64,000 bases of DNA, taken from the NCBI GenBank assembly GCA_017396945.1, contig JAFQKI010000011.1:62001-126000 (forward strand), in the 5' to 3' direction. The position numbers and the translations under genes are program-made. The notes below the pieces were generated by a model. That model was not told the origin of the DNA. It saw only the letters and a list, made by a program, of their open reading frames with translations, and ran no database searches. This stretch comes from Muribaculaceae bacterium. GTDB lineage: Bacteria > Bacteroidota > Bacteroidia > Bacteroidales > Muribaculaceae. Below are positions 35,724 to 52,522 of the stretch, one piece after another. How positions within the stretch are numbered: the stretch's first letter is position 1; every line of letters starts with the position of its first letter.

Positions 35724-38021
35724 ATGGATAATACAGCTAAACAAAGCGAGATCATCGACATTGCGGGCTTATTGCGCGAATATGTATCAAAATGGTATTG
35801 GTTTGCGATCTCGGTTGTGGTGTGTTGCGCCGCAGCCTTTGTATATACAAAATCAAAGAAACCGGTATATCAAGTAAACGCCAACGTGCTCATTTCACAA
35901 GAAGATGGCGGAGGCGTATCATTTGGTGGTCTTTCCGATCTCTTTGGAGGTAGCGGATATGTAGAAGACGAGATCTTTGTGGTGTCATCTCACTCGGTAT
36001 ATCGCGATGTCGCTCGCGATTTGGGATTGTACAAACACCATATCGTTAAAAGCGGATTATTGACCAAAGATTTTAAATACCTTGAATTTCCTGTAGATAT
36101 TTATGCTCCGGCAGGGATGGCTGACACATTGCGCAACTCAATTAAATTTGACATTGAGGTAGATGAGGCAGGATTGGTTGATGTTGAAGCAGAAGCAGAA
36201 AAAACAACCGTAGCCGAAATCGAAGGTGGGAAATTCCCACTTGAGGTCAAGACAAAATATGGCACTTTCACGCTTGACACGACAAAATATTACAAACCGG
36301 GCAAAGACCTACACACCATAATCACATTTATGGGCTATGATGTAGCTGCCGAAATCATGTCGGAAGATGTCACCGTGAGCATTGCCAGCAAAAAATCAAA
36401 TGTAATCGCATTGGGCATCCAAACCGCAGACGTGGTATATGGTAAAGAAGTATTAAATGAAATCGTAAAAAAATACAACGAAAGAGGTGTTGCCGAAAAG
36501 AGTATGCAAGGTCGCCAAACGGCAGATTTCATCAACTCTCGTATTGCATTATTGGAAGCCGATTTGGCAACATCAGAAGCTATTATCGAAGAGTATAAAC
36601 AGAATAACGGAATCGTTGATGTAACTACTGAGGCATCATACCAAATGGCTATCAAGCACGGACTTGAAGAGCGACTATTAAATGCAGAAACCGAACTTGA
36701 GATAATCAAGATAACACGCGAGTTCCTTGCAGACCCGGAGAATGCCTATTCTATGATTGCGACAGCTCCCGGATCGGCATCGGTGCAATCGGCAATTACG
36801 GCCTACAATCAACTGATTCTTCAATACATGAATTTGTCTCGAACAGCCAAAGGGGATAATGCCGCGTTACAAAACCTCACCAACCAAATTGATGCAATGC
36901 GCACCAATATAAACGCGTCATTAGAAAACGCTTACGAAACCGCGTTACTGACCGTCAATAGTCTCAAATCAGAGATGAGCAACGCTAACGCTCGTTTGGG
37001 AAATATCCCTACACAAGAACGTGAATACTTGGCATTGCGCCGTCAACAAGAGGTAAAGCAACAATTATACCTATTCTTGCTACAACGCAAAGAGGAAACC
37101 GAAATGATGATAGCCAACGCATTGCCTAAGGGCGTAGTAGTTGATAATGCGTTTTCTCTCAACGAGCCTGTGGGCTTGTCAAAAAAAGTGATATTGGCAT
37201 TAGCATTCCTCCTCGGTCTCGTGTTCCCTCCGATCATATTATACATCAGACGATTACTCCGCTCTAAATTTGAGACAAAAGATGAGGTTGAGACACTTAC
37301 CAATATACCTATCCTTGGAGAAATGTGTACCAACAAATCAGGCAACTCATTGGTAGTAAAGCCGAATGGTTCATCAACAGCCGGCGAATTATTCCGATTG
37401 ATACGCGCCAATCTGCAATTTGTCCTTAACGGCAAGGATGACAAAGTTGTGTTAATGACTTCAACCATCTCCGGAGAGGGGAAATCATTCATCTCAATCA
37501 ACTTGGCTTCATCATTGGCGATGTTGAACAAACGCGTGTTACTGATGGGTATGGACATCAGAAGCCCAAAATTGGCAGAATATCTATCACTTAACAGTCG
37601 CCACGGATTAACCGAATATCTATCAACAGATGACATCACATTGAATGACATCATTTTGAAAGAACCCGTACAACACAACATGGATGTTATTGTTGCCGGA
37701 CCTGTGCCTCCCAACCCTGCCGAGTTGCTTGCTTCGCAACGTGTTGATGACTTGTTTGCCCAATTACGTACCATGTATGATTACATCATTGTCGATTCGG
37801 CACCTGTTGGCATGGTTAGCGACACATTCTCATTGGCACGAGTTTCTGACGCAACAGTATATGTGTGTCGTGCCAACTACACCTCAATGCGAGATGTCAA
37901 ATTCTTCAACAATGTATATTCCGAAAATCGCTTAAAAAAAATGGCATTGGTTGTAAACGGCACCAACGCAAAGAAAGGCTATGGTTACGGCTATGGCCAG
38001 GATTACGATGGAAAGAAGTAA
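35724..38021 (+). CDS. Wzc-like polysaccharide co-polymerase and tyrosine kinase
   Basis: A 765-residue inner-membrane chain-length regulator fused to a BY-kinase. Transmembrane helices are at about 25-42 and 488-510, flanking the periplasmic Wzz domain with long coiled-coil segments (about 260-450). The cytoplasmic kinase has Walker A STISGEGKS near 578-586, Walker A' LLMGMDIRSP near 611, and Walker B DYIIVDSAP near 690. The C-terminus has a short tyrosine cluster (YGYGYGQDYDG) expected to be the autophosphorylation site. It pairs with the Wza-like lipoprotein upstream and controls polymer length and export. Confidence 0.94.
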   Translation: MDNTAKQSEIIDIAGLLREYVSKWYWFAISVVVCCAAAFVYTKSKKPVYQVNANVLISQEDGGGVSFGGLSDLFGGSGYVEDEIFVVSSHSVYRDVARDLGLYKHHIVKSGLLTKDFKYLEFPVDIYAPAGMADTLRNSIKFDIEVDEAGLVDVEAEAEKTTVAEIEGGKFPLEVKTKYGTFTLDTTKYYKPGKDLHTIITFMGYDVAAEIMSEDVTVSIASKKSNVIALGIQTADVVYGKEVLNEIVKKYNERGVAEKSMQGRQTADFINSRIALLEADLATSEAIIEEYKQNNGIVDVTTEASYQMAIKHGLEERLLNAETELEIIKITREFLADPENAYSMIATAPGSASVQSAITAYNQLILQYMNLSRTAKGDNAALQNLTNQIDAMRTNINASLENAYETALLTVNSLKSEMSNANARLGNIPTQEREYLALRRQQEVKQQLYLFLLQRKEETEMMIANALPKGVVVDNAFSLNEPVGLSKKVILALAFLLGLVFPPIILYIRRLLRSKFETKDEVETLTNIPILGEMCTNKSGNSLVVKPNGSSTAGELFRLIRANLQFVLNGKDDKVVLMTSTISGEGKSFISINLASSLAMLNKRVLLMGMDIRSPKLAEYLSLNSRHGLTEYLSTDDITLNDIILKEPVQHNMDVIVAGPVPPNPAELLASQRVDDLFAQLRTMYDYIIVDSAPVGMVSDTFSLARVSDATVYVCRANYTSMRDVKFFNNVYSENRLKKMALVVNGTNAKKGYGYGYGQDYDGKK

Positions 38022-38034
38022 AAACCTAAATTAA

Positions 38035-39468
38035 ATGGGTGGACGCAAGGGCGTATATAAATGGAGTGCGATTGATCGAGTATGCAATTCGGTAATGACA
38101 TTTGCCGGAAATGTAGTTCTCGCACGCATTCTATCGCCTGACGATTTCGGATTATTGGCAATGGTCGCAATTTTTGTGGCTATTGCCTATAATATATCGG
38201 GATGCGGACTTAGCGATGGCTTAATTAAAAAGCCACACCCAACGGAACGTGATTATTCAACCGTCTTTGTGTTCAATTTAGCGTTTGGTTTGATGTTTTG
38301 CGCCATATTTATACTTTCGGCACAACCGATAGCCGATTTCTTTGGGCATCAAGAATTGGTTGAAATAATGTGGGCAATCGGCATCTGTTTTGTATTCTCA
38401 GCGATGACGTTCACTCAAGAGACGAGAATGCGCAAAGAGTTGGACATGAAGCGAATGGCAATTGTAAGACTATCGGCAACTGCATCATCATTAATTCTTG
38501 GAATATATTTAGCACTTGCCGGCTATGGTTTTTGGGCGTTGGTTTCTACGCGCATATTTTTATCGGTGTTCTTATTTATTTTTTATGTTGCACTTTCAAG
38601 ATGGATACCTCGATTGGCTTTTTATAAAGACTCATTCAAGGAGATGTTTGGCTATGGCGTACACTTGATGTTATCATACGTATTCACACAGATAGGTCGA
38701 AACATTAACACCTCGGTAATAGGCCAATACTCTTCGGCTCAATCAGGGATATATTCACAAGCTCAAAAGATGCAAGAGGTCCCATATTATATCACCGAGT
38801 CGGTGTTTAACTGGCCTTTTTTTGCGGTTCTTTCAAATGAAGAGGATGAGTCAAAACGAAAATCATTGGCACAAAACATGCTCAGCAATATGGTTTTCAT
38901 TAATGTATTGCTTGGTTGCTTGTTGTTGTTACTATCCTCTCCCGGTTTCCAACTATTATATGGTGCAAAATGGGTGGAAGCCATACCAATTTTCAGAGTA
39001 TTGATAATTTTCGGCATCTGCTCTTCTCTAAAATTCTTTTTTCAAACCGTAATGAAAACTTATGGGATGACTAAAGCAATACGAAATCTGACGTTTATTG
39101 AGGTCGTGTTGCAACTCGCCCTATTGGCGATATTTTTCAGAGAAGGTATCATGGCAATAGCATTGACTCAGATTGTCGCGGCATTTGTTATAATGTTATG
39201 GCACTGCTATTATTATAAACAGATTGAAGAGATTTCATTGACTCGCCTCGCCACTCTGTTTTTCAAGCCAATGATAGTATCTATCATTGCGCTATCTATA
39301 ACCGGAATAGGATATTATTTCTGGAATGGGACAGTCTCACACTTTATAAACTGCATATTAATTTTGGTGCTATATGCCATAGTATCAATCGCCGTATTGG
39401 AAAGGACCAAACCTGCAATATATCTGCAATATCGAGCTAAAGTATTAACTAAACTCAAACGTGCTTAA
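38035..39468 (+). CDS. Polysaccharide flippase (Wzx/MOP family)
   Basis: A 477-residue membrane protein with about 12-14 hydrophobic helices, of the PST/MOP superfamily that flips undecaprenyl-linked repeat units. The N-terminal segment KWSAIDRVCNSVMTFAGNVVLARILSPDDFGLLAMVAIFV is typical of the WzxC/lipopolysaccharide-biosynthesis group in length and pattern. Its stop codon overlaps the start of the next gene (base 39468). It follows the kinase by 13 bases in one operon. Confidence 0.92.
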   Translation: MGGRKGVYKWSAIDRVCNSVMTFAGNVVLARILSPDDFGLLAMVAIFVAIAYNISGCGLSDGLIKKPHPTERDYSTVFVFNLAFGLMFCAIFILSAQPIADFFGHQELVEIMWAIGICFVFSAMTFTQETRMRKELDMKRMAIVRLSATASSLILGIYLALAGYGFWALVSTRIFLSVFLFIFYVALSRWIPRLAFYKDSFKEMFGYGVHLMLSYVFTQIGRNINTSVIGQYSSAQSGIYSQAQKMQEVPYYITESVFNWPFFAVLSNEEDESKRKSLAQNMLSNMVFINVLLGCLLLLLSSPGFQLLYGAKWVEAIPIFRVLIIFGICSSLKFFFQTVMKTYGMTKAIRNLTFIEVVLQLALLAIFFREGIMAIALTQIVAAFVIMLWHCYYYKQIEEISLTRLATLFFKPMIVSIIALSITGIGYYFWNGTVSHFINCILILVLYAIVSIAVLERTKPAIYLQYRAKVLTKLKRA

Positions 39469-40895
39469 TGGATTTGGCACTACAACATAATAACTCCGTC
39501 GAAAAGCAACCGCTCAAATTAGACCGAAGCAGTTGGTTGTGGGCATTGGGATTTCTCTTTTCCATGTCTCTTATGGGATTGAATTTCCCATTCGGATATA
39601 TTTTTGTATTCTTAATTCTCGTAAACCGGTATATCAACAATCGATATGATTTTATCATTCAGATAACATTGTTGTGTGGTCGTTATTCGCTTATTGGTGA
39701 GGAAGATTTCCCTGTCAAATTTGAGGACGTCGCATTATTGATTTCGATATTGGGACTTTTTATTTATCGAAAGCCACCAATGCTGAAGAAAATTACAATA
39801 GCAATGATGCTGTATTTCGTAGCATTAGTATTGATTGCAAGTACAAGCGATGAATCAATGGCTGTTCAATTCAGACGAATGAGAAACTACATGATGATGA
39901 TTTATCTGTTCATCCCGCTGTTGGTGTTTTCCGGGCAAAAATTCGAAATACATGAATTGTTCAAAAAACTATTTGCTTACACATTAATCATCTGCGCGTT
40001 TTATGCATTGGACGGATTTATATTAAATGGCTATGTGTTAATCCCCAACTCATTCTCAGGAGAGGGGCATGAACCATCGACATTTTATAGCATTCATTGG
40101 CGGGAACTCCCGCGAAAATATCCTCCGGGGTTATATCTGATGGCTTTGTGTTTGATACCATTGGCACGCCACTACAAATTGAATTGGAAACATTGGCTAT
40201 TGGTCATCGCGGCATTAGCGGCAGCCCGTACGCTATCAATAATTCTCGGGTTGTTATTAGCATACGGCATATTCCAAGGTCACATCAAGCAAATGGCCAA
40301 ATACGCGGTAATTGCGACAATCTCATTGATTGTACTTTATCACGTAGATGCGGCAACAGGCAGTTTCTTGCGCATACAATCTACTTTCGATCAATTCACA
40401 TCTTTGGAAGCGGCTCAAGATGACGAAGATATGTCAGAGTTTGGTTCAGGACGCTTTGCCCAGATTTTCCCAAAATATGAGGTTCTATATGATTTAGAGC
40501 GAGAGTGGTTGGGGTTCGGTTTTTTACACCCCGAACTCACTCAAGACCCTAAATTCCTAATCTACAACGAACTTTATGTTGATAAAACCAATTCATGGGA
40601 AGTAGTCACGGGGATTGAAATCGCCCCATTGCAAACGATTGCCGACATCGGATATATCGGATTGGTAATTCAACTACTATTCTATGGTTGGCTCTATTAT
40701 ATCGTAAGGCGACTGAGGTATTCTACCTGGTTCCTTTCAGTTCTGGTCGTAAACTTCTTATTTGGATTGGGAGGGTTTGCCGGATTTAACCAAAATGACG
40801 GATTGTTGCTGTGTGCGTTAACGCTTGGTGCGGTACTCTTAGCCAACAAAAACAACCCTATTTATCTTGGCACAGAAAACAAACCGAAAATTTAA
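39468..40895 (+). CDS. O-antigen polymerase-like membrane protein (Wzy candidate)
   Basis: A 475-residue polytopic membrane protein with about 10-12 helices and a large extracytoplasmic loop (about 300-390) containing GSGRFAQIFPKYEVL and EWLGFGF, the pattern of Wzy/WaaL polymerases, where a loop Arg/His region contacts the lipid-linked sugar. The sequence is poorly conserved as usual, so the call rests on topology and on its place right after the flippase. The start shares a base with the flippase stop; the end is 4 bases from the next start. Confidence 0.8.
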   Translation: MDLALQHNNSVEKQPLKLDRSSWLWALGFLFSMSLMGLNFPFGYIFVFLILVNRYINNRYDFIIQITLLCGRYSLIGEEDFPVKFEDVALLISILGLFIYRKPPMLKKITIAMMLYFVALVLIASTSDESMAVQFRRMRNYMMMIYLFIPLLVFSGQKFEIHELFKKLFAYTLIICAFYALDGFILNGYVLIPNSFSGEGHEPSTFYSIHWRELPRKYPPGLYLMALCLIPLARHYKLNWKHWLLVIAALAAARTLSIILGLLLAYGIFQGHIKQMAKYAVIATISLIVLYHVDAATGSFLRIQSTFDQFTSLEAAQDDEDMSEFGSGRFAQIFPKYEVLYDLEREWLGFGFLHPELTQDPKFLIYNELYVDKTNSWEVVTGIEIAPLQTIADIGYIGLVIQLLFYGWLYYIVRRLRYSTWFLSVLVVNFLFGLGGFAGFNQNDGLLLCALTLGAVLLANKNNPIYLGTENKPKI

Positions 40896-40899
40896 CAAG

Positions 40900-42501
40900 A
40901 TGAGAATTGTTCATTTATTATTCAATCTTCGTGTAGGTGGCACCGAAACAATGCTATTAGACATAATGTCTAATCAAGCGAAATTGGGTGCTGATGTTTT
41001 CTTTATTCTTATAAATAAAGAACAGGATCCATATTTGTTATCTCGGGTAGATCAAAAAATCAAGACAATATTTATAAACAGACCTGACGGTTCAAAAAAT
41101 CCATGGTGGGCAATAATACTCAACCACCAGTTACAAAAAATCGCCCCTGACATTATTCATTGTCACAATGTCAAAGCGTTAGGGCTTGTATTTAAAAGGA
41201 AAAACGTCAAACTTGTTTTTACCGCACATTGTATGGGTATAGCAAACCCATTGTTAAAGCGAGCCGACCTTATATGCTCAATTTCAGATGCGGTAAAGCA
41301 AGATTTAAGGAATAGGCTAAACCTCGAATCCACTATTATATACAATGGCATATCAGTGTCCAAAATCGCTCATGCCAAAACCAATAACACCTCAAATAAA
41401 TTCAAGATTATCCAAGTAGGACGTCTCGACCACTCAATAAAGGGGCAAGATATCACGATTAAAGCCATCGCACTTCTTAAAGAAAAGTATGGTCTCGATA
41501 ATATCTATGCCGACTTTTATGGTTTTGGTTCCTCAAAAGATATGCTAATAGAGTTAGCAAAAGAGCATGGACTTGAAGACCGCATATATATCCCCGGTAC
41601 AACAATAAAACATGAGGACTTATGCACTCAATTGAAAAATTATAACATGTTGATACTACCTTCGCGCGATGAAGGGTTCGGTTTGACAATCGCCGAAGGA
41701 ATGGCTGCTAAATTGCCGGTTCTTGTATCAAACATCCCGGGACCAATGGAAGTCGTTGGCAATGGACAGTATGGCTCAGTATTCGAGTCTGAAGACATTA
41801 ACGATTGTGCCGACAAAATATATGACATAATCACAAATCCCAATAAGTATCAAAATTTAGCGTCAAACGAGGCATACGATTTTCTGAAATCAAATTTTGA
41901 TATTGAAATTACCGCAAAAAGATATTGCGACAAATACATTGAAATCATGTCTAAGACAAAATCTTCGCCATCAATCAAGATGGATTTATACCGATATAGC
42001 GGGAATACCCGACTAAAAAGTTTTTTGAAACATTATTTCCTAAGTCCCGGATTTAGAATAACAGTATGGTTCAGACTCGCATCAAAATTCAATGGACCTT
42101 TTGGAGCCATTCTTAATCTGATATTGATGCATTACAGATATTTGTTTGGAATCGACCTAAAACGCAACACAAAAATTGGCAAAGGGTTTTATATCGGTCA
42201 CTTTTCAGGCATTGTTATAAGTTCAACAACCGTAATCGGCGACAATTGCAATATCAGCCAAGGAGTAACTATAGGGGTTGCCGGCAAAGGCGAAAACCGC
42301 GGTTGCCCAACAATCGGCAACAATGTTTACATTGGTGCCGGTGCTAAAATAATTGGTAAAATAGCAATCGGCAACAATGTCGCGATTGGAGCCAACGCTG
42401 TTGTAACCAAAGATGTACCCGATAACGCTGTTGTCGGAGGTATTCCGGCAAAAATAATATCAATGGACGGAGCATCAGAAATACTAACAAATTGCATTTA
42501 A
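40900..42501 (+). CDS. Fusion: family 4 glycosyltransferase plus serine-acetyltransferase-type acyltransferase
   Basis: A 533-residue two-domain protein from the ATG at 40900 (an upstream in-frame start at 40867 overlaps the Wzy gene and is unlikely). Residues 1-350 are a GT-B glycosyltransferase: MRIVHLLFNLRVGGTETM, IIQVGRLDHSIKGQD, and the nucleotide-sugar motif LPSRDEGFGLTIAEGMA near 255. Residues about 360-533 are a CysE/WcaB-like left-handed beta-helix acetyltransferase: an N-terminal helical MDLYRYSG segment, then hexapeptide repeats (IGKGFYIGHFSGIVI, GAGAKIIGKIAIG) ending PAKII. The likely product adds a sugar and acetylates the glycan. The reading frame is continuous across the join. 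Confidence 0.9.
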   Translation: MRIVHLLFNLRVGGTETMLLDIMSNQAKLGADVFFILINKEQDPYLLSRVDQKIKTIFINRPDGSKNPWWAIILNHQLQKIAPDIIHCHNVKALGLVFKRKNVKLVFTAHCMGIANPLLKRADLICSISDAVKQDLRNRLNLESTIIYNGISVSKIAHAKTNNTSNKFKIIQVGRLDHSIKGQDITIKAIALLKEKYGLDNIYADFYGFGSSKDMLIELAKEHGLEDRIYIPGTTIKHEDLCTQLKNYNMLILPSRDEGFGLTIAEGMAAKLPVLVSNIPGPMEVVGNGQYGSVFESEDINDCADKIYDIITNPNKYQNLASNEAYDFLKSNFDIEITAKRYCDKYIEIMSKTKSSPSIKMDLYRYSGNTRLKSFLKHYFLSPGFRITVWFRLASKFNGPFGAILNLILMHYRYLFGIDLKRNTKIGKGFYIGHFSGIVISSTTVIGDNCNISQGVTIGVAGKGENRGCPTIGNNVYIGAGAKIIGKIAIGNNVAIGANAVVTKDVPDNAVVGGIPAKIISMDGASEILTNCI

Positions 42502-42547: not shown

Positions 42548-44680
42548 ATGGAACAATTAACTCAAAAACTTGGCTCTGGCGAAATGGTAATCCAGGAATT
42601 ACCCGTACCTCAATTATCGGCAGGAATGGTTTTGGTAAAAAACCACTTCTCACTAATCAGTGCAGGGACTGAAGGTTCTACCGTAAAAGCCGCACGCAAA
42701 AGTTTGATAGGCAAAGCCAAAGAACGTCCACAACAAGTAAAGCAGGTGCTTGACACTCTTAAGAAGCAAGGTATCGTGCAAACTTATCGCGCCGTTATGA
42801 AAAAACTTGACGCCTACTCTCCGCTTGGTTATAGTAGCGCAGGTGAAGTAATTGCCGTAGCCGATGACGTCACCGAGTTTAAGGTTGGTGATAAAGTAGC
42901 TTGTGCCGGAGCCGGCTATGCCAATCATGCCGAAGTAGTTAGTGTTCCGGTAAACTTATGTATAAAGTTGCATGATGACGCCGACTTGGCTGAAGCATGT
43001 TATAACACTCTTGGAGCAATCGCATTACAAGGAGTGCGCCAAGCTGACCTGAGATTGGGCGAAACTTGTGCTGTAATCGGTCTTGGTCTTATCGGGCAAT
43101 TGGCATGTCTTGAATTGAAAGCATCGGGGGTAAATGTGGTCGGGATCGACGTATCGGAAGGCGCCGTAAAAATGGCACGCGAGCATTGTGCCGATATCGC
43201 TATCGCTCGAAACACTCCGGGGATAGAAGAACAAATCAAAGACTACACCAATGGTATCGGTGTTGATTGTGTTATCATCGCCGCAGCCACATCAAGCCTT
43301 GACCCTGTGAACTTTGCAGGTGCAATCTGTCGCAAAAAGGGTAAAGTCGTAGTCCTTGGTGCAGTACCCACCGGATTTGACCGCGAACCTTACTACTACA
43401 AAAAAGAGCTTGAATTGAAAATGTCATGCTCTTATGGTCCCGGTCGCTATGACTTAAACTACGAAGAAAAAGGTATCGATTATCCCGCAGCATACGTACG
43501 TTGGACAGAAAAACGCAACATGGAAGCGTTTCAAAATTTGATTTACAACAAACGCATAGACTTGGGATATTTGACTACCCATAGATTTAAATTTGAAGAT
43601 GCGCCCAAAGCCTATGATATTGTTGTGAAACGTACTGAACCATTCTTGGGAATCGTACTTGAATATGACTACACCAAAGAGCATAAAGCCGGTTCTATCA
43701 ACATCAATACCGCTAATGCAGTAAAAGATGTAAACATCGCATTTATCGGTGCCGGAAGCTATGCTCAAGGTCACTTGCTACCCAACTTGCCATCGGAAGA
43801 TGAAGTTGGCCGCATCTCGGTTATGACCAATTCAGGAACAACATCAAAACGTGTAGCCGAAAAATATAAATTCGCACAATGCACCTCTGACGAAAAAGAG
43901 ATCCTAAACAATGAGAAAATTAACACATTGTTTATCGCAACACGCCACGATACTCATGCCCACTATGTAATAGAGGGATTGCGTGCCGGCAAAAACGTTT
44001 ATGTAGAGAAACCTCTCTGCTTGAATGTTGACGAACTTATTGAAATCGAACAATTGTGTCAAGAGAAAAATTGCGGTGTGATGATTGGTTTCAACCGTCG
44101 CTTCTCTCCATTTGCTCAAAAGATCAAAGCAAAAGTGGGCAGTGGCAAAATGTCAATGATTTATCGCATCAACGCCGGCTCAATACCTGCCGACTCTTGG
44201 ATTCAAGACCTAACCGTTGGCGGGGGTCGCATCATTGGTGAGGCTTGTCACTTTATAGACCTAATGGCATACATGTGTGGTAGCGTGCCATGTAAAGTAT
44301 CGGCATCGGTAATGAACGACCCTCAAGGGTTGAACGACACAGTAAACATGCTTGTGGAATTTGAGAATGGTTCAACCGGTGTTGTCGCATATTATGCCAA
44401 CGGTTCAAAGAGTCTGCCCAAGGAATACTTTGAAGTTTATCACGCAGGAACTACCGGTATCATTTATGACTTCAAAAAATGCGAGATATATGGTCGCAAA
44501 GTAGAGAAATTCTCTAAAACATCTCAAGACAAAGGTCAAAAAGAGATGATGACACAATTCTTCGCATCGCTCAAAAACGGCAAGCTACCCATTGCTCTCA
44601 ATGAGATTTTCAGTGTCACAAAAGCCACATTTGCTGCTCTGAAGTCTATGCAAGAAGATGGCGCTCCGGTTAAATTTTAA
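42548..44680 (+). CDS. Bi-domain oxidoreductase: zinc-type alcohol dehydrogenase plus Gfo/Idh/MocA
   Basis: A 710-residue fusion. The N-terminal half (about 1-370) is a medium-chain dehydrogenase: HFSLISAGTEGSTVK, KVACAGAGYANHAEVV, and the Rossmann motif GLGLIGQLACLEL near 178. The second half (about 390-710) is a Gfo/Idh/MocA oxidoreductase: FIGAGSYAQGHLLPNL near 399 and YVEKPLC near 485 with the catalytic-site Lys, followed by GFNRRFSP. Known relatives are called bi-domain-containing oxidoreductases and occur in polysaccharide clusters; the substrate is unproven. It may oxidise and re-reduce a sugar (epimerisation or deoxygenation). Confidence 0.93.
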   Translation: MEQLTQKLGSGEMVIQELPVPQLSAGMVLVKNHFSLISAGTEGSTVKAARKSLIGKAKERPQQVKQVLDTLKKQGIVQTYRAVMKKLDAYSPLGYSSAGEVIAVADDVTEFKVGDKVACAGAGYANHAEVVSVPVNLCIKLHDDADLAEACYNTLGAIALQGVRQADLRLGETCAVIGLGLIGQLACLELKASGVNVVGIDVSEGAVKMAREHCADIAIARNTPGIEEQIKDYTNGIGVDCVIIAAATSSLDPVNFAGAICRKKGKVVVLGAVPTGFDREPYYYKKELELKMSCSYGPGRYDLNYEEKGIDYPAAYVRWTEKRNMEAFQNLIYNKRIDLGYLTTHRFKFEDAPKAYDIVVKRTEPFLGIVLEYDYTKEHKAGSININTANAVKDVNIAFIGAGSYAQGHLLPNLPSEDEVGRISVMTNSGTTSKRVAEKYKFAQCTSDEKEILNNEKINTLFIATRHDTHAHYVIEGLRAGKNVYVEKPLCLNVDELIEIEQLCQEKNCGVMIGFNRRFSPFAQKIKAKVGSGKMSMIYRINAGSIPADSWIQDLTVGGGRIIGEACHFIDLMAYMCGSVPCKVSASVMNDPQGLNDTVNMLVEFENGSTGVVAYYANGSKSLPKEYFEVYHAGTTGIIYDFKKCEIYGRKVEKFSKTSQDKGQKEMMTQFFASLKNGKLPIALNEIFSVTKATFAALKSMQEDGAPVKF

Positions 44681-44726
44681 TACAAATAGAATGGAATAAT
44701 CCTCTTGTTTTAATCTGTATCATAAC

Positions 44727-45797
44727 ATGGCAAATAAGTTAAGTCGGCACATAAGCAATTCTATCTTGTTTTTAGGACCTGATTATACACCTCCCAAGGG
44801 GGGTGTCGCAATGGTCTTAGAAAACTATGATAAGTTTATATTCACCACATTTAAATCTATCGCCAACTCTTGCGAAGGCTCAAAACTAAAAAAAATCACG
44901 ATTGCATTATTGGCAATTTTTAAAATGTGTTGGGTGCTTTTAACCGACAGACAGATTAAAATAGTACATATTCACACAGCGTCCGGCATTAGCTTTAAAC
45001 GTTCTACTTATTTTGCCAAAGTTGCTCGCTTTTTCAAGAAAAAAGTCATCTTACATATACATGGAGGGAACTTTAAGCGATTTTACAACAGTAGCCCGAC
45101 TAAAATTAAATCAGAGCTATTGAAATGCGATAAAATCATTGCGTTAACCAATGATTGGAAAGATTTTTTTGAAAAAGAGGTTGGTCTTGGAAATGTAACA
45201 GTAATCGAGAATGTAATTCCGGATCCTCAACTACAGGAAGAATGTAATAATGAAAAAACTCACTTACTGTTTTTAGGACTTATTCATAGAGATAAAGGCA
45301 TATACGATCTTCTTGAGGTAATAAATAATCATAAACATGAGTTTATAGACAATTTAGAGCTTCACGTAGGAGGGAATGGAGAAGTTCAGAATTTTAATTC
45401 AAAAATAGACCAATATGAACTCGGTGACATAGTTACATATGAAGGTTGGGTAAATGGTGATAAAAAAACAGGGCTTTTAAATTCAGCTGACGCGTTAATT
45501 CTCCCAAGCTACATTGAGGGTTTACCGATGGTAATTTTAGAAGCGATGAGCTATGGTTTGCCGGTACTATCAACCCCGGTAGGAGGTATCCCCGAAGTCA
45601 TTACGGCAGAAAACGGAATTTTATTTAATCCCGGGGATAAAGACGACATCTATAGGGCAATCTCTCAATTTATTTCACTTGACACCACAAAAAGAGGACA
45701 AATGAGAAACGAAGCGATGAAAAAATCTGAGCCATTCCGACCCGGTTCCATAAGTAATAAATTGAAGATGTTATACCAAGAACTTTTAAATGAGTAA
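44727..45797 (+). CDS. Family 4 glycosyltransferase
   Basis: A 356-residue GT-B glycosyltransferase. The N-terminal domain has the acceptor-binding GGVAMVLENYD and HIHTASGISFKRS segments; the C-terminal domain has LFLGLIHRDKGIYDLLEV and the retaining-GT4 motif LPSYIEGLPMVILEAMSYG with the conserved Glu residues. The C-terminus overlaps the following gene by 8 bases. It adds one sugar of the repeat unit; donor and acceptor unknown. Confidence 0.93.
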   Translation: MANKLSRHISNSILFLGPDYTPPKGGVAMVLENYDKFIFTTFKSIANSCEGSKLKKITIALLAIFKMCWVLLTDRQIKIVHIHTASGISFKRSTYFAKVARFFKKKVILHIHGGNFKRFYNSSPTKIKSELLKCDKIIALTNDWKDFFEKEVGLGNVTVIENVIPDPQLQEECNNEKTHLLFLGLIHRDKGIYDLLEVINNHKHEFIDNLELHVGGNGEVQNFNSKIDQYELGDIVTYEGWVNGDKKTGLLNSADALILPSYIEGLPMVILEAMSYGLPVLSTPVGGIPEVITAENGILFNPGDKDDIYRAISQFISLDTTKRGQMRNEAMKKSEPFRPGSISNKLKMLYQELLNE

Positions 45798-47139
45798 TAA
45801 TATGGGAGTAGCTGATTTTGTAAAAAATAGTTTACCTCAATATCCAAATTGGTTAAATGGCAGATTGTTAAAATGTAACTGTTTGCACGATTCAATATAT
45901 GGACGTGAGATGATGCGATTCAAATCAAGCATTCCATCAATCAATCCGGAAGAAAAATTGCTTGAAATCGTAAACTATTCAATTCAAAAAGTGCCATATT
46001 ATAGAAAACGATATGGCGGTCTAAAGATAAATTCAATCTCGGAATTTAAAGAAAAAATTGGCTTCATCGATAAAAACGAAGTCATGAATAATTGGGATGA
46101 ATTTGTCGCAGAGGATATTGATATGACAAAATGCCTTGACGCGACAACAAGTGGCACAAGCGGACGCCCATTGCGTTTTTTAATGCCTAAGAACCGTTAT
46201 GTTACGGAAATGGCCTTTATTACTAAAATATGGCAACGTTCAGGGTGGAACTATAATTGTCGCGCAAATATCAGAACCGTAAAATTTTCTGCAGACAGAG
46301 ATTTTATCATAAATCCGATTTCTAAAGAAATTCAATTTGACCTTTTTAGGATGAGCGATGATTACGCACAAATAATCTGCAATGCCATGAAAAAATACAA
46401 TGCAGATACAATTTACTCATACCCGTCCTCAGCATATCAATTCTTAAAAATCTGTCAACGCAAAGGTATTGACACCTCTTTTATAAAATACGCGTTGTTG
46501 ACAAGTGAACGAATAACGCCCGAACAATATAAATTCATCTCAGACGAATTGGGCATAGTAATCTCCTCATATTATGGTCATTCTGAGAAATTGATTATGG
46601 CAGGGATGATTGACGCTACTCGTTTTACGGTTGAACCCGGATATGGCTTTGCTGAATTAGTCGATGATACCGGAAATGATGTCTGCGAGAAAGGAGCAAT
46701 TGGCGAGCTTGTCGGAACGACGTTCTATAATCGTTTTATGCCATTAATCAGATACAAAACCGGAGATATGGCTGTTTTTGAAAAATATGATTATGATGAT
46801 GACGGTCTAAAAAAAATGTTCTTAGAAACGATTCATGGACGTAGAGATAAATCTTTAATCTACCGACATGATGGAACATCAATCTCAGACGCATCACTAA
46901 CATTACATGATGATTTTTACAATCATATTGATGGATTGCAATTTATTCAAACCCAAAAAGGTTATTTAGAAGTTTTAATAATCAAAAACAACAAATATAC
47001 CGATAAAGATGAAGCTTATTATAAACAACATGTCTCAAAAGCCATGCTGGGAGAAGAATTTGTCAGCATTAAGTATGTTGACAAATTAAAGTTCCTTCCT
47101 AACGGGAAATTTCTACCTGTAATAAGTAATTTTAATTAA
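45790..47139 (+). CDS. CapK/PaaK-like adenylate-forming enzyme
   Basis: A 449-residue protein of the phenylacetate-CoA ligase/coenzyme F390 synthetase-like (CapK) family. The AMP-binding P-loop TTSGTSGRP lies near 119-127, [15 protein letters not shown] (about 257-271) supplies the aromatic/acidic site, and [11 protein letters not shown] (about 320-330) is the conserved Gly-Asp motif of adenylate-forming enzymes. The short C-terminal domain ends in [12 protein letters not shown], with the typical late Lys. In polysaccharide loci such enzymes probably activate a carboxylic acid for attachment to a sugar. It overlaps the upstream GT4 gene and precedes an acyltransferase that could use its product. 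Confidence 0.85.
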
Positions 47140-47168
47140 AGCCATTAATAGCATCAACGCACAAGCAT

Positions 47169-47711
47169 ATGATTGATAAGATTTTACATTTATTTACAGG
47201 GGGGGGTAATAAACTTGCATCTTACTGTTTCAAGCCCCTATTTGTCAAGTGCGGGAGCAATATACATTTTTCCCCACTAAACTCCCAATTTTCATACCGG
47301 ACAATAACTATCGGCAATGATGTTTATATTGGTCCAAAAGCTCGCTTTTCGGCGGTCAAAGGGCTAAAAATCGGCAATAAAGTAACATTTGGACCGGGAG
47401 TAACAATAATGGGTGGCAATCACAACTTCAAAGAGGTTGGCAAATACATTTTTGACAACCACACAAAGCGTCCCGATGACGACCTGCCTGTAGTTATAGA
47501 CGATGACACATGGATTGGCTGTAATGCAATCATCCTTAAAGGGGTACACATCAACCAAGGCGCAATTGTGGGAGCCGGAGCAGTTGTCACAAAAGATGTC
47601 CCCGCCTATGCCATTGTCGCGGGCAATCCGGCAAAGGTAGTGAAATACCGTTTTACTGAAGAACAAATAATTGAACACGAAAAACAATTAGGCATAACAC
47701 GAAATGGCTGA
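47169..47711 (+). CDS. Left-handed beta-helix acyltransferase (hexapeptide family)
   Basis: A 180-residue transferase of the CatB/WcaF/NodL type. Hexapeptide repeats run from about 50 to 165 ([56 protein letters not shown]), with the catalytic histidine in MGGNHNF near 75. It probably O- or N-acylates a repeat-unit sugar. Codons 11-13 form an uninterrupted run of eight G (47199-47206), an unusual tract in this genome that could slip and switch the gene off. It overlaps the next gene by 8 bases. Confidence 0.9.
47199..47206 (+). repeat. Poly-G tract (G8) near the 5' end of the acyltransferase gene
   Basis: Eight consecutive G within codons 11-13. Slippage by one base would shift the frame and truncate the protein very early, a layout known from phase-variable capsule acetyltransferase genes in other phyla. 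Confidence 0.7.
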
Positions 47712-48897
47712 TATACTGAACTCATTTATCAAACTGCGCGACTATTGCGAGGCTGAACAATACAAAGGTTGGGACCCATACGATGGTCTCAATTCAAAAT
47801 TGTTTAACGCCATCCCTTTTCTGAATAAATCGGCAATTTGTCGCTTGGTAATGATTCAGGCGTTTAAACGCTTGCCATTTAATTTACGCCGATTGGCAAT
47901 AATTCCTAAGCAACATAACGCCAAAGGTATAGGGTTGTTTCTTCAAGGATATTGCAACTTATATAGAGCCGTTGAGCGTCGCCCTGAGTTATCGGTAGCA
48001 TTAGGAAATCTTGAAAAATTGAAAGCCAAGATAAATGAAGTCGCCGAGTTGCTCATTTCATTACAATCCCCCGGTTATAGCGGAGCTTGTTGGGGTTACA
48101 ACTTTCCATGGCAATGTCGCCGTGAGTTTTTGTTCCCCAGTGGAACTCCAACGGTCGTAGCTACAAATTTCTGTGCCACTGCTCTATTTGAAGCATACGA
48201 AATAACGCAAATTGAGAAATATAAAGATATTGCCTTGACCTCGGCACAATTTGTATTGAAAGATTTACATCGAGCCAAAGCAAAAGAAGGATTTATATTC
48301 TCTTATAGCAAACTACCGGGCAATGATACAGTCTATAACGCCTCACTACTTGGCAGCCGAGTATTGAGCTACTGCTATAAATACTCCGGCAATGAAAAGT
48401 ATAAAGAAATGGCTCGTCAATCGGTAATTGCTTGTTGTGAAGCGCAAGCCGAAGATGGATCCTGGGCTTACGGGTCTCTACCGGTTCAAAGTTGGATTGA
48501 TAGTTTCCACACAGGATATAATCTTGACGGACTCATTGCATATGAAGAATTGACCGGCGATACCACTTTCCACGACAACATTGAGAAAGGATTGAAATTT
48601 TACATCGAGAACTTCTTCATGCAAGATGGCTCACCCAAATACTACCATAACAAACAATATCCCATCGACATTCACTGTCCCGGACAGTTGTTTGTCTCAT
48701 TGTCAAGGCTTCACAAGTATGATGAGCATCGCCAACTCATTGAGAAAGTGAAAAATTGGGTAATCGCCAACATGCAATCGCCTAAAGGTTATTTCTATTA
48801 CCAGCTCAAACCTGGATGGAGTTCTAAAATATCCTACATGCGCTGGAGCAATGCGTTTATGTTTTGCTCTTTGAGCTATTGTATATTACAAGATTAA
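47704..48897 (+). CDS. Alpha/alpha-toroid protein of the polysaccharide locus, function unknown
   Basis: A 397-residue soluble protein without signal peptide. It appears built of repeated helix pairs with WGYNFPWQ near 124, DGSWAYG near 256 and [15 protein letters not shown] near 275, the pattern of alpha/alpha-toroid enzymes (terpene-cyclase-like, D-glucuronyl C5-epimerase-like, lyase-like). I cannot name the reaction. Conserved-looking Trp, His and Asp residues line these motifs, so it is probably an enzyme. It starts inside the acyltransferase gene (8-base overlap) and ends the first polysaccharide operon. Epimerisation or cleavage of a uronic-acid-containing polymer is one guess. Confidence 0.7.
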
Positions 48898-49016: not shown

Positions 49017-50219
49017 ATGAAAGCATGTTTTATGGGGCTTGGCTACATAGGCTTGCCCACCGCTATAATCGCCGCAAAAAACGGCATCGAAGTTAAAGGT
49101 GTAGATGTCAACCCTATGGTTGTTGAAAAAACCAACGCCGGGGAGTTACATATCATCGAACCCGGTCTTGGTGATTTATTGAAAGATGTTGTGTCATCGG
49201 GCGCACTCGTGGCTACAACAAAGCCCGAAGTGTGTGACGCATACTTCATGGTTGTCCCCACTCCATTCAAAGGGAACCACCAACCCGACACCTCATTTGT
49301 TGAAGCCGCCACTCGTGCCGTGTTGCCACTATTGAAAGAGGGCGACCTTTATGTGATTGAATCAACTTCTCCGGTTGGAACCACCGAAGCAATGGCAAAC
49401 ATAATTTATGCCGAACGTCCCGAACTTGAGGGGAAAATTCACATCGCATATTGCCCTGAGCGCGTATTGCCCGGCAATGTGATATATGAATTGGTTCACA
49501 ACGACCGTGTGATAGGTGGTATCGATGAGGCTTCGACCGATAAAGCCATTGCCTTTTACTCTCAATTTGTGAAAGGTCAACTTCACCGCACCAATGCCCG
49601 CACCGCCGAGATGTGCAAACTAACCGAGAACTCATCTCGCGACGTGCAAATCGCATTTGCCAATGAGTTGTCATTGATTTGCGACCGCGCCGGCATCAAT
49701 GTGTGGGAACTCATCGCGCTTGCCAACAAACACCCTCGCGTAAACATACTTCAACCAGGATGTGGCGTAGGTGGTCACTGTATCGCAGTCGATCCCTATT
49801 TCATCACCTCAGAATTTCCCAAAGAATCAAGAATCATCGCTACCGCACGCGAAATCAACAACTATAAAGCCGATTGGTGTGCCGAAAAAGTTGAAAACGC
49901 CATGCTCAAATTTGAGCTTGAAAACCACCGCAAGCCTGTTGTCGCGATGATGGGCATCGCATTTAAACCCGATATCGACGACCTTCGCGAGTCTCCCGCA
50001 AAATATATTACGACAAAAGTCATGCAAAAATGCAATAATGCAAGCATTCTTGTCGTTGAACCTAATGTGAGTGAACACAATGTGTTTAAACTCACCGACT
50101 ATAACGAAGCCTATGAGACTGCCGACATCGTGGTGTTCTTGACAGCCCACACTCCGTTTAAGTCGTTGAAGAAACGTGAGGATAAAATAATCCTCGATTT
50201 CTGCGGAATTTTCAGATAA
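49017..50219 (+). CDS. wecC: UDP-N-acetyl-D-mannosamine dehydrogenase
   Basis: A 400-residue UDP-sugar dehydrogenase oxidising UDP-ManNAc to UDP-ManNAcA with two NAD. N-terminal Rossmann motif MGLGYIGLP, the STSPVGTTE segment near 118, NSSRDVQIAFANELS near 200, the catalytic Cys in QPGCGVGGHCIAVDPYF near 242-258, and C-terminal IAFKPDIDDLRESPA near 320. Presence of wecB downstream supports the ManNAc rather than glucose substrate, though other UDP-HexNAc dehydrogenases look alike. Confidence 0.93.
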   Translation: MKACFMGLGYIGLPTAIIAAKNGIEVKGVDVNPMVVEKTNAGELHIIEPGLGDLLKDVVSSGALVATTKPEVCDAYFMVVPTPFKGNHQPDTSFVEAATRAVLPLLKEGDLYVIESTSPVGTTEAMANIIYAERPELEGKIHIAYCPERVLPGNVIYELVHNDRVIGGIDEASTDKAIAFYSQFVKGQLHRTNARTAEMCKLTENSSRDVQIAFANELSLICDRAGINVWELIALANKHPRVNILQPGCGVGGHCIAVDPYFITSEFPKESRIIATAREINNYKADWCAEKVENAMLKFELENHRKPVVAMMGIAFKPDIDDLRESPAKYITTKVMQKCNNASILVVEPNVSEHNVFKLTDYNEAYETADIVVFLTAHTPFKSLKKREDKIILDFCGIFR

Positions 50220-50240: not shown

Positions 50241-50945
50241 ATGACGATTGAAAAAGTAACAATTAGAGGAGTTGAGTTATATCCGTTTTCTTCGGTTGAT
50301 GAGATTATAGATTTTGCCGATGAGAACAAAGGCATATTAGTTGCCGTAAATGCCGAAAAGATACTCAACGCCAACGAGACAACCCTACCAATCATCAACA
50401 ACAACATAGGCTATTGCGACGGCTCTGGCGCAGTGCTTGCAGCCAAGAAAAAAGGAGCAAAAAACGCTTGCAAAATAGCCGGATGTGAATTGTGGTTACA
50501 CATTATCAATCGCTTTCATGGCAAAAAGACTTTCTACTTGATAGGCGCAAAACCTCAAGTCATTGAAGAGGTTATCGCCAAACTCAAGACTGAATACCCC
50601 GACATCGATATTATAGGTCATCGAGATGGCTACATCAAAACCGACGAAGAACGTCAAGCGCTTATCAATGATATTGCCGACAAGAAACCCGATGTGGTAT
50701 TTGTCGCAATGGGTTCTCCAAAACAAGAAATCCTCATGTCGGACATGTTGAAACGCCATCGTGCCATCTATCAAGGTCTCGGAGGCAGTTTTGATGTTTA
50801 CTCAGGTCATCAAAAACGTGCGCCCAAGTGGTGGATTGACCACAACATGGAATTTGCCTATCGCCTGATAAAGCAACCTAAACGCATCACCCGCAACATT
50901 CATTTCGTCAAATATGCCTATTGGCTCGTAACCAACAAACTCTAA
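50241..50945 (+). CDS. wecG: WecG/TagA/CpsF-family glycosyltransferase
   Basis: A 234-residue GT26 enzyme. Family signatures visible are ILVAVNAEKILNAN near 30, the GSGAVLAAKKKGA region near 60-75, the IGAKPQVIEEVIAKL segment near 100, and VFVAMGSPKQEILMSD near 155. WecG adds ManNAcA, and TagA adds ManNAc, onto a lipid-linked GlcNAc, so it fits exactly between wecC and wecB. It lies 21 bases after wecC and 11 bases before wecB. Confidence 0.9.
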   Translation: MTIEKVTIRGVELYPFSSVDEIIDFADENKGILVAVNAEKILNANETTLPIINNNIGYCDGSGAVLAAKKKGAKNACKIAGCELWLHIINRFHGKKTFYLIGAKPQVIEEVIAKLKTEYPDIDIIGHRDGYIKTDEERQALINDIADKKPDVVFVAMGSPKQEILMSDMLKRHRAIYQGLGGSFDVYSGHQKRAPKWWIDHNMEFAYRLIKQPKRITRNIHFVKYAYWLVTNKL

Positions 50946-50956
50946 ACGCAAATAGG

Positions 50957-52117
50957 ATGAAAAAAATCATGCTCGTGTTCGGGACACGTCCCGAAGCCAT
51001 AAAGATGGCTCCACTTGTTAAAGAGTTTCAGAAATATCCCGAAAAATATCAGACCATAGTGTGTGTGACCGGTCAGCACCGCCAAATGTTGGATCAAGTG
51101 CTTTCACTTTTTGAGATTACACCCGACTATGACTTGAATATAATGAAACAAGGGCAAGACCTCTATGATGTTTCAGCCCGCATTTTGACAGGCATGCGTG
51201 ATGTGCTAAGCGAGTGCACCCCTGACTTGGTGCTTGTACATGGCGACACTGCGACATCAACCGCCGCAGCACTCAGTGCATTCTACAAACAAATCCCCGT
51301 AGGTCACGTCGAAGCGGGATTGCGCACACACGACATCTATAGTCCATGGCCCGAAGAGATGAACCGACAATTAACCGGTCGAATCGCTACATTACACTTC
51401 TCCCCTACCGAGACAAGCCGTGGCAACTTATTGCGTGAAGCCGTTGCCGACAAAAATATCAGCGTAACCGGCAATACCGTTATTGATGCCTTACACTTGG
51501 TTGTAAACAAGATACAAAACGATGCAACACTCGAAAAATCCCTAATCGAATATATCAACACTCTCGGGTATGACGTAAACCGATTAAACGATGGCCGACG
51601 CTTGGTATTGGTCACCGGACATCGTCGCGAAAACTTCGGAGACGGCTTTATGAACATCTGCAACGCGCTCAAAGACCTTGCGGAACGTTATCCCGAAGTT
51701 GACTTCCTTTACCCGATGCATCTCAACCCCAATGTGCGTCGCCCCATCAACGAAGTATTTGGCAACATAAGTCACGGCAACGTGTTCTTTATTGAGCCTG
51801 TCGAATATCTATATTTCGTATATTTGATGACTCACAGCTACATCATATTGACCGATAGCGGTGGCATTCAGGAAGAAGCTCCATCGCTTGGTAAACCGGT
51901 GCTTGTAATGCGCGAAGTCACCGAACGTCCTGAAGCGCTTGAAGCCGGCACAATACGCCTTGTTGGCACCAACCGCCAACTCATTGTCGATGAAGCAGCC
52001 CGTTTCTTGGATGATGCCGAGTATTATGCCAACAACCAACGCATCGCCAACCCATACGGCGACGGGACAGCATGTCCGCAAATCTGCTCGGTAATCGACA
52101 AATTCTTTAACGAATAA
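50957..52117 (+). CDS. wecB: UDP-N-acetylglucosamine 2-epimerase (non-hydrolysing)
   Basis: Interconverts UDP-GlcNAc and UDP-ManNAc, supplying the dehydrogenase encoded two genes upstream. 386 residues from the ATG at 50957, giving the canonical start MKKIMLVFGTRPEAIKMAPLV (read in two parts); the in-frame start at 50921 overlaps wecG and is less likely. Conserved catalytic features include VCVTGQHRQMLDQ near 36, VHGDTATSTAAAL near 94, HVEAGLRT near 116, and DSGGIQEEAP near 298. It is the last gene of the polysaccharide region, followed by a strong terminator. Confidence 0.96.
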   Translation: MKKIMLVFGTRPEAIKMAPLVKEFQKYPEKYQTIVCVTGQHRQMLDQVLSLFEITPDYDLNIMKQGQDLYDVSARILTGMRDVLSECTPDLVLVHGDTATSTAAALSAFYKQIPVGHVEAGLRTHDIYSPWPEEMNRQLTGRIATLHFSPTETSRGNLLREAVADKNISVTGNTVIDALHLVVNKIQNDATLEKSLIEYINTLGYDVNRLNDGRRLVLVTGHRRENFGDGFMNICNALKDLAERYPEVDFLYPMHLNPNVRRPINEVFGNISHGNVFFIEPVEYLYFVYLMTHSYIILTDSGGIQEEAPSLGKPVLVMREVTERPEALEAGTIRLVGTNRQLIVDEAARFLDDAEYYANNQRIANPYGDGTACPQICSVIDKFFNE

Positions 52118-52136: not shown

Positions 52137-52186
52137 ACAAAGCAGTTGTGGTATGTGATGCCACAACTGCTTTGTCTGTTTTATTT
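52137..52186. terminator. Bidirectional terminator after wecB
   Basis: A perfect 15-bp stem (52137-52151 with 52161-52175, 9-base loop) followed by a T-rich tail. It separates wecB from the convergent HIRAN gene, which ends at 52181 inside the tail. Confidence 0.92.
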
Positions 52187-52522
52187 TTCGTTACGATTTA
52201 CAAAGATTGTAACTTCAATGCGTTGCTCAGGATGTGCATCAATATTAATCGCACTCACTCTCATCTCAAAGATCTCGCCCCAACCCATATCTATGAAACT
52301 TGCGAGTTCACTATTTTTATCACGAGGCACATAACCAACTTTATAATCATCGTAATAAAGCGCAATCGCATTCCCATCATGTTTATTTCCTTCATCTCGT
52401 TCCATTTCAATTATAGATCCAGGCTTGAGATCATTGATAACAAATAATGCTTCATTGTAAGTCACAGCAGCTACTTTAAAGCGCATAAAGAAACGATGTT
52501 TTTCAATTCTTTCTTTTTTCAT
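52181..52522 (-). CDS. Stand-alone HIRAN-domain protein
   Basis: A 113-residue protein made almost entirely of one HIRAN domain (about 14-105): VTYNEALFVINDLKPGSIIEM, the conserved RDEGNKHDGNAIALYY, and VGYVPRDKNSELA. HIRAN domains bind DNA 3' ends in helicases such as HLTF, and small stand-alone forms are found in bacteria. The partner here is unknown. It is a single gene; a minus-strand -7 box (TAACTTTG) sits at 52550-52557. Confidence 0.9.
   Translation of the reverse strand: MKKERIEKHRFFMRFKVAAVTYNEALFVINDLKPGSIIEMERDEGNKHDGNAIALYYDDYKVGYVPRDKNSELASFIDMGWGEIFEMRVSAINIDAHPEQRIEVTIFVNRNEK

Follow-up and report, generated by a model that had tools for sequence, protein, structure and literature searches.

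A possible aminouronate-maturation gene set with a toroid protein, a bi-domain oxidoreductase and a CapK-type enzyme in a vps-like polysaccharide cluster of a Muribaculaceae bacterium

The DNA analysed here (the window) is a stretch of 64,000 nucleotides from a Muribaculaceae bacterium (assembly GCA_017396945.1, completeness 63.8%; contig JAFQKI010000011.1, positions 62,001 to 126,000). It contains a polysaccharide gene cluster in which five genes that share one direction, between positions 42548 and 48897, encode a fusion oxidoreductase, a GT4 glycosyltransferase, a CapK/PaaK-type adenylate-forming enzyme, a hexapeptide acetyltransferase and an (alpha/alpha) toroid protein (Table 1). All but the GT4 had been named in an initial annotation made from the letters alone, and the open reading frames (ORFs; the most upstream start was chosen mechanically) and their family matches bear those four out; of the several 8-base overlaps that it saw between gene ends, two exist (45790-45797 and 47704-47711), and at the other two junctions the genes stand 46 and 29 bases apart. 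Its view that these genes probably form a sugar-modifying set inside a polysaccharide cluster is one that we share. Our proposal, to which we give a probability of about 0.45, is that these genes serve aminouronate maturation within a Wzx/Wzy polysaccharide cluster like the Vibrio vps clusters, in which the toroid protein would carry out a C5 step, the fusion enzyme a C3 step and the CapK protein an amide step. The reactions proposed below are read from gene content, gene neighbourhoods and conserved residues.

Table 1. Genes of the polysaccharide cluster in the window
Feature	Coordinates	Strand	Family evidence
Outer-membrane export protein (Poly_export, SLBB)	34901..35704	+	PF02563, 1.1e-16
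Wzc-like chain-length tyrosine kinase	35724..38021	+	TIGR01007, 135.3 bits (cut-off 108); Wzz, GNVR
Wzx-type flippase	38035..39468	+	PF13440, 5.6e-66
Putative Wzy-type polymerase, 475 amino acids (aa)	39468..40895	+	Position and hydrophobic sequence only
GT4 fused in frame to a serine acetyltransferase (SAT)-like LbH domain	40903..42501	+	NF041874, 141.5 bits at residues 367-520 (cut-off 150)
MDR + Gfo/Idh/MocA fusion, bi-domain oxidoreductase, 710 aa; proposed C3 epimerase partner of the toroid	42548..44680	+	Pfam ADH_zinc_N and GFO_IDH_MocA
GT4 glycosyltransferase, 356 aa; VpsI-like in position	44727..45797	+	Glycos_transf_1
CapK/PaaK adenylate-forming enzyme, 449 aa; proposed uronate amide ligase, VpsH-like in position	45790..47139	+	
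Hexapeptide (LbH) acetyltransferase, 180 aa; proposed O-acetylation	47169..47711	+	Pfam Hexapep
(alpha/alpha) toroid protein, 397 aa; proposed aminouronate C5-epimerase, VpsJ-like in position	47704..48897	+	GH88
UDP-ManNAc 6-dehydrogenase (WecC type)	49017..50219	+	NF008286, 509 bits (cut-off 459)
WecG/TagA (GT26) transferase	50241..50945	+	NF002980 (WecG), 184.6 bits (cut-off 323); TarA, 115.2 bits (cut-off 350)
UDP-GlcNAc 2-epimerase (WecB)	50951..52117	+	TIGR00236, 485.8 bits (cut-off 210)

By profile similarity the toroid protein belongs to the AGE/GH88 (alpha/alpha)6 toroid superfamily. Pfam GH88 matches it at 2.7e-8 (33.6 bits, cut-off 26.6), it scored 25.2 bits, below the cut-off, in the genome search with PF07470, and Pfam also gives weak pectate lyase and GH127 matches. 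The best match of its profile among PDB sequences is cellobiose 2-epimerase (5.6e-7 for the whole chain, 0.0037 for the best single stretch), followed by squalene-hopene cyclases (3e-5) and then weakly by GH88, GH105 and GH76 chains, with noise at E values of 0.1-0.8; the single sequence found no PDB match by phmmer. Residues D24, D27, Y201, N212, Q248, G252, H269 and W381 are invariant in 86 toroid rows and R62, Y256, D322 and R380 are 99% conserved, and no signal peptide is apparent by eye. A Glce-type epimerase is ruled out by family, PF06662 (C5-epim_C) being unmatched at E 0.1. Homologues are found on plasmids of haloarchaea, Methanosarcina and proteobacteria (30 plasmid records), and profile comparison of the toroid with three haloarchaeal, one Vibrio and one Pseudoalteromonas protein gave an E value of 7e-91. 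Those on plasmids of Natronorubrum, Halobellus and Haloferax mediterranei (L203, L204 and L205) lie within sugar gene clusters, the last beside wecB and a nucleotide sugar dehydrogenase gene. Some public records misname toroids, for example as 'antibiotic ABC transporter permease' or 'aspartate-semialdehyde dehydrogenase'.

Two archaeal proteins that match similar families work in glycan assembly, according to the relevant passages of their published descriptions (PMC3827465, PMC13308652). Agl32 of Halobacterium salinarum is described there as a single-domain helical GlcA C5-epimerase that acts on a lipid-linked tetrasaccharide before membrane passage and requires flanking sugars, and its nearest fold class is that of cellobiose 2-epimerase, from which its catalytic residues differ (PMC13308652). 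AglQ of Haloferax volcanii is soluble, with GH88 and AGE matches, in the corresponding passages on that protein (PMC3827465).

The toroid is present in 38 of 395 Bacteroidota genomes and in 29 of 297 genomes of the same family, which include 2 of the 11 other genomes of the same genus; the nearest named carriers among the best 80 of 567 confirmed loci are Muribaculaceae genomes from sheep and goat (81% identity). Neighbours were counted in 27 of 28 fetched family loci (L058, with a toroid score below 100 bits, was dropped), in 33 of 40 phylum places (omitting the window's own, five weak places in four genomes and one second copy) and in those 80 named loci, which are the closest relatives by selection, share some of their loci with the family set and count one genome twice (L126 and L127). 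The labels were assigned by phmmer score: in the family and phylum counts 70 bits for WecG, 50 for CapK, 150 for the hexapeptide protein and 150 for the fusion; in the 80-locus adjacency counts 70, 45, 100 and 500, respectively; and in the association tests 70, 45, 100 and 400, with 130 for the GT4 label (GT4b). Fisher tests count related loci as independent, so all p values given here are too small. Genome-level tests exclude the window's own genome and use 394 of the 395.

WecG adjoins the toroid in 64 of the 80 named loci, gammaproteobacterial ones among them (L149 and L193), and is within six genes of it in 71; in 37 of the 64 adjacent pairs the two gene ends overlap when the most upstream starts are taken. 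The fusion is within six genes of the toroid in 27 of the 80, CapK (at least 45 bits) in 19 and the hexapeptide gene in 4. Within six genes of the toroid, the 27 family loci have WecG in 20, the fusion in 7, CapK in 5 and the hexapeptide gene in 3, and the 33 phylum loci have the fusion in 9 (8 of them directly beside it), WecG in 6 (2 directly beside it), CapK in 1 and the hexapeptide gene in none. Toroid and WecG are the core among close relatives, to which the fusion and a GT4-CapK pair are recurring additions, and beside more distant toroids the fusion enzyme is commoner than WecG. CapK and GT4 are associated (GT4 in 13 of 19 CapK loci versus 5 of 61 others, p = 5e-7), as are the hexapeptide gene and the fusion (4 of 27 fusion loci versus 0 of 53, p = 0.011), and CapK and the fusion are not (7/19 versus 20/61 of the 80 loci, p = 0.79).

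The complete set of fusion, GT4, CapK, hexapeptide protein, toroid and WecG is found in one of the 80 named loci (L132, in the order GT4-CapK-fusion-hexapeptide-toroid-WecG), and five of the genes occur in 15 distinct presence patterns across the 80. We regard the window as a mosaic, because the full set is confined to one locus and its parts vary among the family, phylum and named loci. The coupled four-gene module of the initial annotation thus fails as a fixed unit, with the full set in 1 of 80; its four genes do occur together elsewhere, in L132, and their doing so nowhere had been named as grounds for dropping the idea. The toroid-CapK neighbourhood that it proposed to look for exists in 19 of the 80 named loci but in just 5 of the 27 family and 1 of the 33 phylum loci. 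It passed over the WecG that accompanies toroids, the pairing of GT4 and CapK, and the resemblance to vps-type clusters. In L032, a locus of the same genus that was followed from Wzc through to WecB, the order is GT-fusion-hexapeptide-toroid-dehydrogenase-WecG-WecB, with no CapK and a different GT replacing this GT4; L031, whose contig begins just upstream, resembles it. At the place of 40903-42501, L032 has a 351-aa match and then a second GT. Phocaeicola vulgatus ATCC 8482 has the same gene list around both of its toroids (L126 and L127), apparently a duplicated polysaccharide cluster, and also two equal UDP-ManNAc dehydrogenase matches. There the toroid is followed by WecG and WecB, six genes to either side include no fusion, and a close UDP-ManNAc dehydrogenase gene lies at a distance of about 11 kb.

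Relatives of the fusion enzyme are called 'bi-domain-containing oxidoreductase' in public records. Zinc-dependent alcohol dehydrogenases (ADHs) have a GHE motif and a Cys motif, and Gfo/Idh/MocA proteins an EKP motif and a catalytic His region. Among 66 rows, those of the window protein and 65 relatives, at least 90% have GYS where the MDR domain would have GHE, and SAGTE occupies the place of the Cys motif in the fusion enzyme, so that the catalytic zinc ligands are not kept and a zinc-dependent ADH is rejected; the earlier label of a zinc-ADH/Gfo-Idh-MocA fusion is right as to family and wrong as to zinc. The second domain retains E487-K488-P489 and C567-H568-F569, again in at least 90% of the rows, and we concur that the protein is probably a sugar redox enzyme. 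Among PDB sequences PmdC leads the matches of this domain (7e-19), which include glucuronide 3-dehydrogenase and DgpA, and these allow C3 chemistry.

The fusion is found in 22 of 37 toroid genomes versus 56 of 357 others, and lies within 10 kb of the toroid in 10 of those 22. In Bacteroidota loci without a detected toroid, fusions of 604-671 bits are also present (L238-L250, L255 and L256). Of 20 toroid-free loci, 7 of which had their neighbours scanned, 4 have a heparinase II/III partner near the fusion (L237, L251, L253 and L254); fusion and heparinase lie beside wecC and wecB in Parabacteroides distasonis and near wecB and wecC in Sphingobium. The same arrangement, an MDR + Gfo/Idh/MocA protein beside a heparinase II/III protein, is given for zbdP-hepP of P. 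aeruginosa PA14 in the relevant part of one report (PMC5732420), and that pair is listed under O-antigen biosynthesis in another (PMC1794565). Judged by locus number it is near the gene for UDP-ManNAcA dehydrogenase, which two reports, in the parts concerned, agree is PA14_23380; they differ on PA14_23370, which one names a UDP-GlcNAc 2-epimerase and the other a 6-dehydrogenase (PMC9611778, PMC12654532). The PA14 O-antigen repeat consists of alpha-L-GalNAcA, QuiNAc and Rha, with ManNAcA absent from the structure as given in the passage concerned (PMC2997053).

The CapK protein scores 23.8 bits with Pfam AMP-binding (cut-off 29.9) and matches NCBIfam models of adenylating enzymes at E values down to 8.7e-25, below their cut-offs; it is not a curated phenylacetate-CoA ligase (TIGR02155, 48.6 bits, cut-off 646). 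It has the P-loop, YG.SE-type, TGD and GR motifs and the C-terminal Lys that are typical of adenylate-forming enzymes, and T120, G122, G125, Y262, E266, D326, R351 and K440 are conserved in at least 90% of 25 rows. The initial annotation had this protein activate an organic acid that the acyltransferase attaches, a pairing for which we find no support, since a hexapeptide gene accompanies 1 of 19 CapK loci versus 3 of 61 others (p = 1.0), and we refuse the two as an obligate pair. Between CapK and toroid L039 has a gene that matches octopine dehydrogenase (5.5e-23), and between fusion and toroid L042 has one that matches an aminotransferase (2.5e-48); because of these genes, in the two loci looked at, an amide with an amino compound fits better than an O-acyl group. 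Asparagine-synthase-like amidotransferases lie directly upstream of the fusion or toroid in two other loci (L105, 12663-14534; L098, 7403-9334), which suggests that uronic acids may carry primary amides in other clusters.

Like a vps-type cluster, the window has a UDP-GlcNAc 2-epimerase and a UDP-ManNAc dehydrogenase that both score over their cut-offs. The toroid cluster of Vibrio sp. THAF191d has VpsD (521.8 bits, cut-off 300) and VpsF (495.8 bits, cut-off 150), and its order is UDP-ManNAc dehydrogenase, VpsD, a 476-aa protein in the flippase place, VpsF, SAT-like protein, CapK, GT4, toroid and WecG. That of Pseudoalteromonas sp. THAF3 runs wecB, wecC, SAT, VpsD, lipopolysaccharide biosynthesis protein, VpsF and two more genes, and then a block of PaaK-family protein, GT4, toroid, acyltransferase and WecG. 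In the window, as in L206 and L260, CapK, GT4, toroid and WecG lie close together, though the order is not the same. When the window's flippase and polymerase ORFs were searched at E 0.001, the VpsF model (NF038256) did not match, and VpsD (NF038255), among the best 25 models listed for 44727-45797, scores 32 bits (cut-off 300). By position CapK would be VpsH and the toroid VpsJ, the V. cholerae proteins being equated through relatives; VC0924 is presumably annotated as CapK. No function is assigned to vpsJ in the relevant part of one account (PMC5109742).

The repeat unit of Vibrio polysaccharide (VPS), in the part of its structural description concerned, contains 2-acetamido-2-deoxy-guluronic acid, most probably L, as the glycine amide with an acetyl at O-3, and its authors expect L-GulNAcA to arise from D-ManNAcA by inversion at C5 (PMC3901696). 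The passages concerned in the accounts of VPS and of the PA14 O-antigen name no genes for the inversion or the amide (PMC3901696, PMC2997053), and none of the open-licence papers listed assigns a gene to either by its title. Two steps for which those passages name no gene thus face two proteins without roles, and by elimination we match toroid and CapK to C5 inversion and amide formation. In the pathway that we propose, WecB and WecC would make UDP-D-ManNAcA and WecG would transfer ManNAcA onto a lipid-linked repeat unit, where the toroid would invert C5 of the linked residue, giving L-GulNAcA, as Agl32 does for lipid-linked GlcA. The fusion enzyme could oxidise and then re-reduce the same sugar, a redox-neutral inversion of C3, and inversion at both centres would yield L-GalNAcA, the 3,5-epimer of D-ManNAcA. 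CapK would then adenylate the C6 carboxylate, which would be joined in amide linkage to an amino compound, glycine in the case of Vibrio VPS; an O-acetyl may be added by the hexapeptide protein or by the SAT-like domain of 40903-42501. By our own derivation from Fischer projections, inverting C5 of D-ManNAcA gives L-GulNAcA, and inverting C3 as well as C5 gives L-GalNAcA. The prediction is therefore L-GulNAcA where the toroid acts by itself and L-GalNAcA where the fusion acts with it. Plant GDP-mannose 3,5-epimerase brings about the same net inversion. That fusion and toroid form a two-protein 3,5-epimerase which turns glycosidically bound D-ManNAcA into L-GalNAcA, with CapK-type proteins as uronate amide ligases, is a narrower and more doubtful claim than the proposal as a whole.

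A number of observations weigh against the proposal. In 35 of the 38 toroid-bearing Bacteroidota genomes there is no UDP-ManNAc dehydrogenase over the cut-off (3 have one). Among the 27 of the 80 loci with fusion plus toroid, a close UDP-ManNAc dehydrogenase is within six genes in 5, and of 12 of them that were searched genome-wide, 11 have only distant dehydrogenase relatives (28-35% identity) and one has none. Across the 80 loci the fusion shows no association with the dehydrogenase (5/27 versus 13/53, p = 0.78). WecG of at least 70 bits is near the toroid in just the 6 of 33 phylum loci given above, and 33 of the 80 named loci have toroid and WecG without fusion, GT4b, CapK or hexapeptide protein at the thresholds used. 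Toroid and heparinase, the two partners of the fusion, are unrelated by profile comparison, and their homology was rejected (hhalign probability 0.2% with four Bacteroidota, one Parabacteroides and one Sphingobium protein, HepP excluded). Three of the scanned toroid-free fusion loci have unrelated neighbours (methylmalonyl-CoA mutase, KAP NTPase and E1 dehydrogenase), and therefore the fusion has other roles too. Finally, HepP is described as a heparinase with activity (PMC5732420) and vpsH is called export-related (PMC5109742), both in the passages concerned.

At the genome level, too, UDP-ManNAc dehydrogenase is associated neither with the toroid (2/37 versus 10/357, p = 0.31) nor with the fusion (3/78 versus 9/316, p = 0.71), and close dehydrogenases are found in 3 of 17 named genomes searched (P. 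vulgatus and two Bacteroides). A WecB-like gene is somewhat commoner near the fusion (21/27 versus 28/53, p = 0.051). Apart from the window's own genome, 5 genomes combine a dehydrogenase over the cut-off with a toroid or fusion gene, and in each of them the two share a contig, at most about 10 kb apart. Because most toroid genomes lack an over-cut-off UDP-ManNAc dehydrogenase, D-ManNAcA cannot serve as the substrate everywhere; the toroid family must use other uronates in many hosts, or the proposal is wrong for those hosts.

The toroid could instead be a hydrolase or lyase of GH88, GH105 or polysaccharide lyase type that trims faulty lipid-linked or released polymer, comparable to the quality-control glycosidase of some clusters. 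The GH88 match, the weak pectate lyase and GH127 matches and the GH88, GH105 and GH76 chains among the weak PDB matches speak for such an enzyme, but its best PDB match is an epimerase, it adjoins WecG among close relatives with no signal peptide apparent, and AglQ and Agl32, as described, build glycans in spite of similar family matches; we think this unlikely. The initial annotation had left the toroid to epimerise or trim the polymer, and of these we keep a possible epimerase, with trimming surviving as this rival. Much the same small chance goes to an AGE-type isomerase that works on a nucleotide diphosphate-sugar or free sugar upstream of the transferase step and not on a linked residue. 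Cellobiose 2-epimerase as top profile match speaks for it, and its product could feed the downstream WecG-type transferase; against it, WecB already covers a C2 step in the window, and Agl32 is reported to act on a lipid-linked glycan and to need its flanking sugars.

Smaller still is the likelihood that chance brought these genes together, as unconnected decorations exchanged among capsule clusters and sharing no joint chemistry. The 15 presence patterns, the L032 locus with its missing CapK and exchanged GT, and the scarcity of WecG in the phylum loci are as this would have it, but pairs recur, namely toroid with WecG (64/80), fusion with toroid in Bacteroidota, and CapK with GT4. Least probable to us, and indeed very unlikely, is the earlier scheme of an organic acid that is made reactive by CapK, as thioester or adenylate, and is then attached in ester linkage by the hexapeptide protein: CapK keeps its adenylation motifs, the C-terminal Lys included, and the two genes adjoin in the window, but they show no association in the 80 loci, and L032 carries the hexapeptide gene without CapK. 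If our proposal of toroid C5, fusion C3 and CapK amide steps is right, the toroid family would be an unnamed class of aminouronate C5-epimerases common to bacteria and archaea, and three poorly named families (toroid, bi-domain oxidoreductase and CapK) would gain specific, testable reactions. For a chemical step to which the cited accounts assign no gene, this set offers candidate enzymes.

As to the other genes, the search of 39468..40895 against families gave no match at E 0.001, and for 50241..50945 the WecG model outscores the TarA model, both below cut-off. No initiating transferase is seen among the cluster ORFs; elsewhere in the 63.8%-complete genome there are one PF02397 and one PF00953 match. 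Directly past the cluster, on the opposite (minus) strand at 52181-52522, lies a gene for a HIRAN-domain protein of 113 aa (PF08797, 1e-12).

Among known systems, the uronyl C5-epimerases Glce (PF06662) and DSepi1, the latter related to the heparinase family, catalyse the reaction that we propose for the toroid, which lacks a PF06662 match. As compared through published descriptions, Agl32, a single helical domain that acts on a lipid-linked glycan, and AglQ, a soluble protein with GH88 and AGE matches, are like the proposed toroid enzyme and differ in the sugar. PA14 zbdP-hepP shares with the window the architecture of the fusion and the presence of uronate genes, there at neighbouring locus numbers, whereas its partner is a heparinase II/III protein and that of the window is a toroid. 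With Vibrio vps-I the window has in common a UDP-ManNAc dehydrogenase, GT4, CapK, acetyltransferase, toroid and WecG; it differs in that it adds the fusion oxidoreductase, has its SAT-like domain fused to a GT4, and has a different gene order in which the dehydrogenase sits between toroid and WecG.

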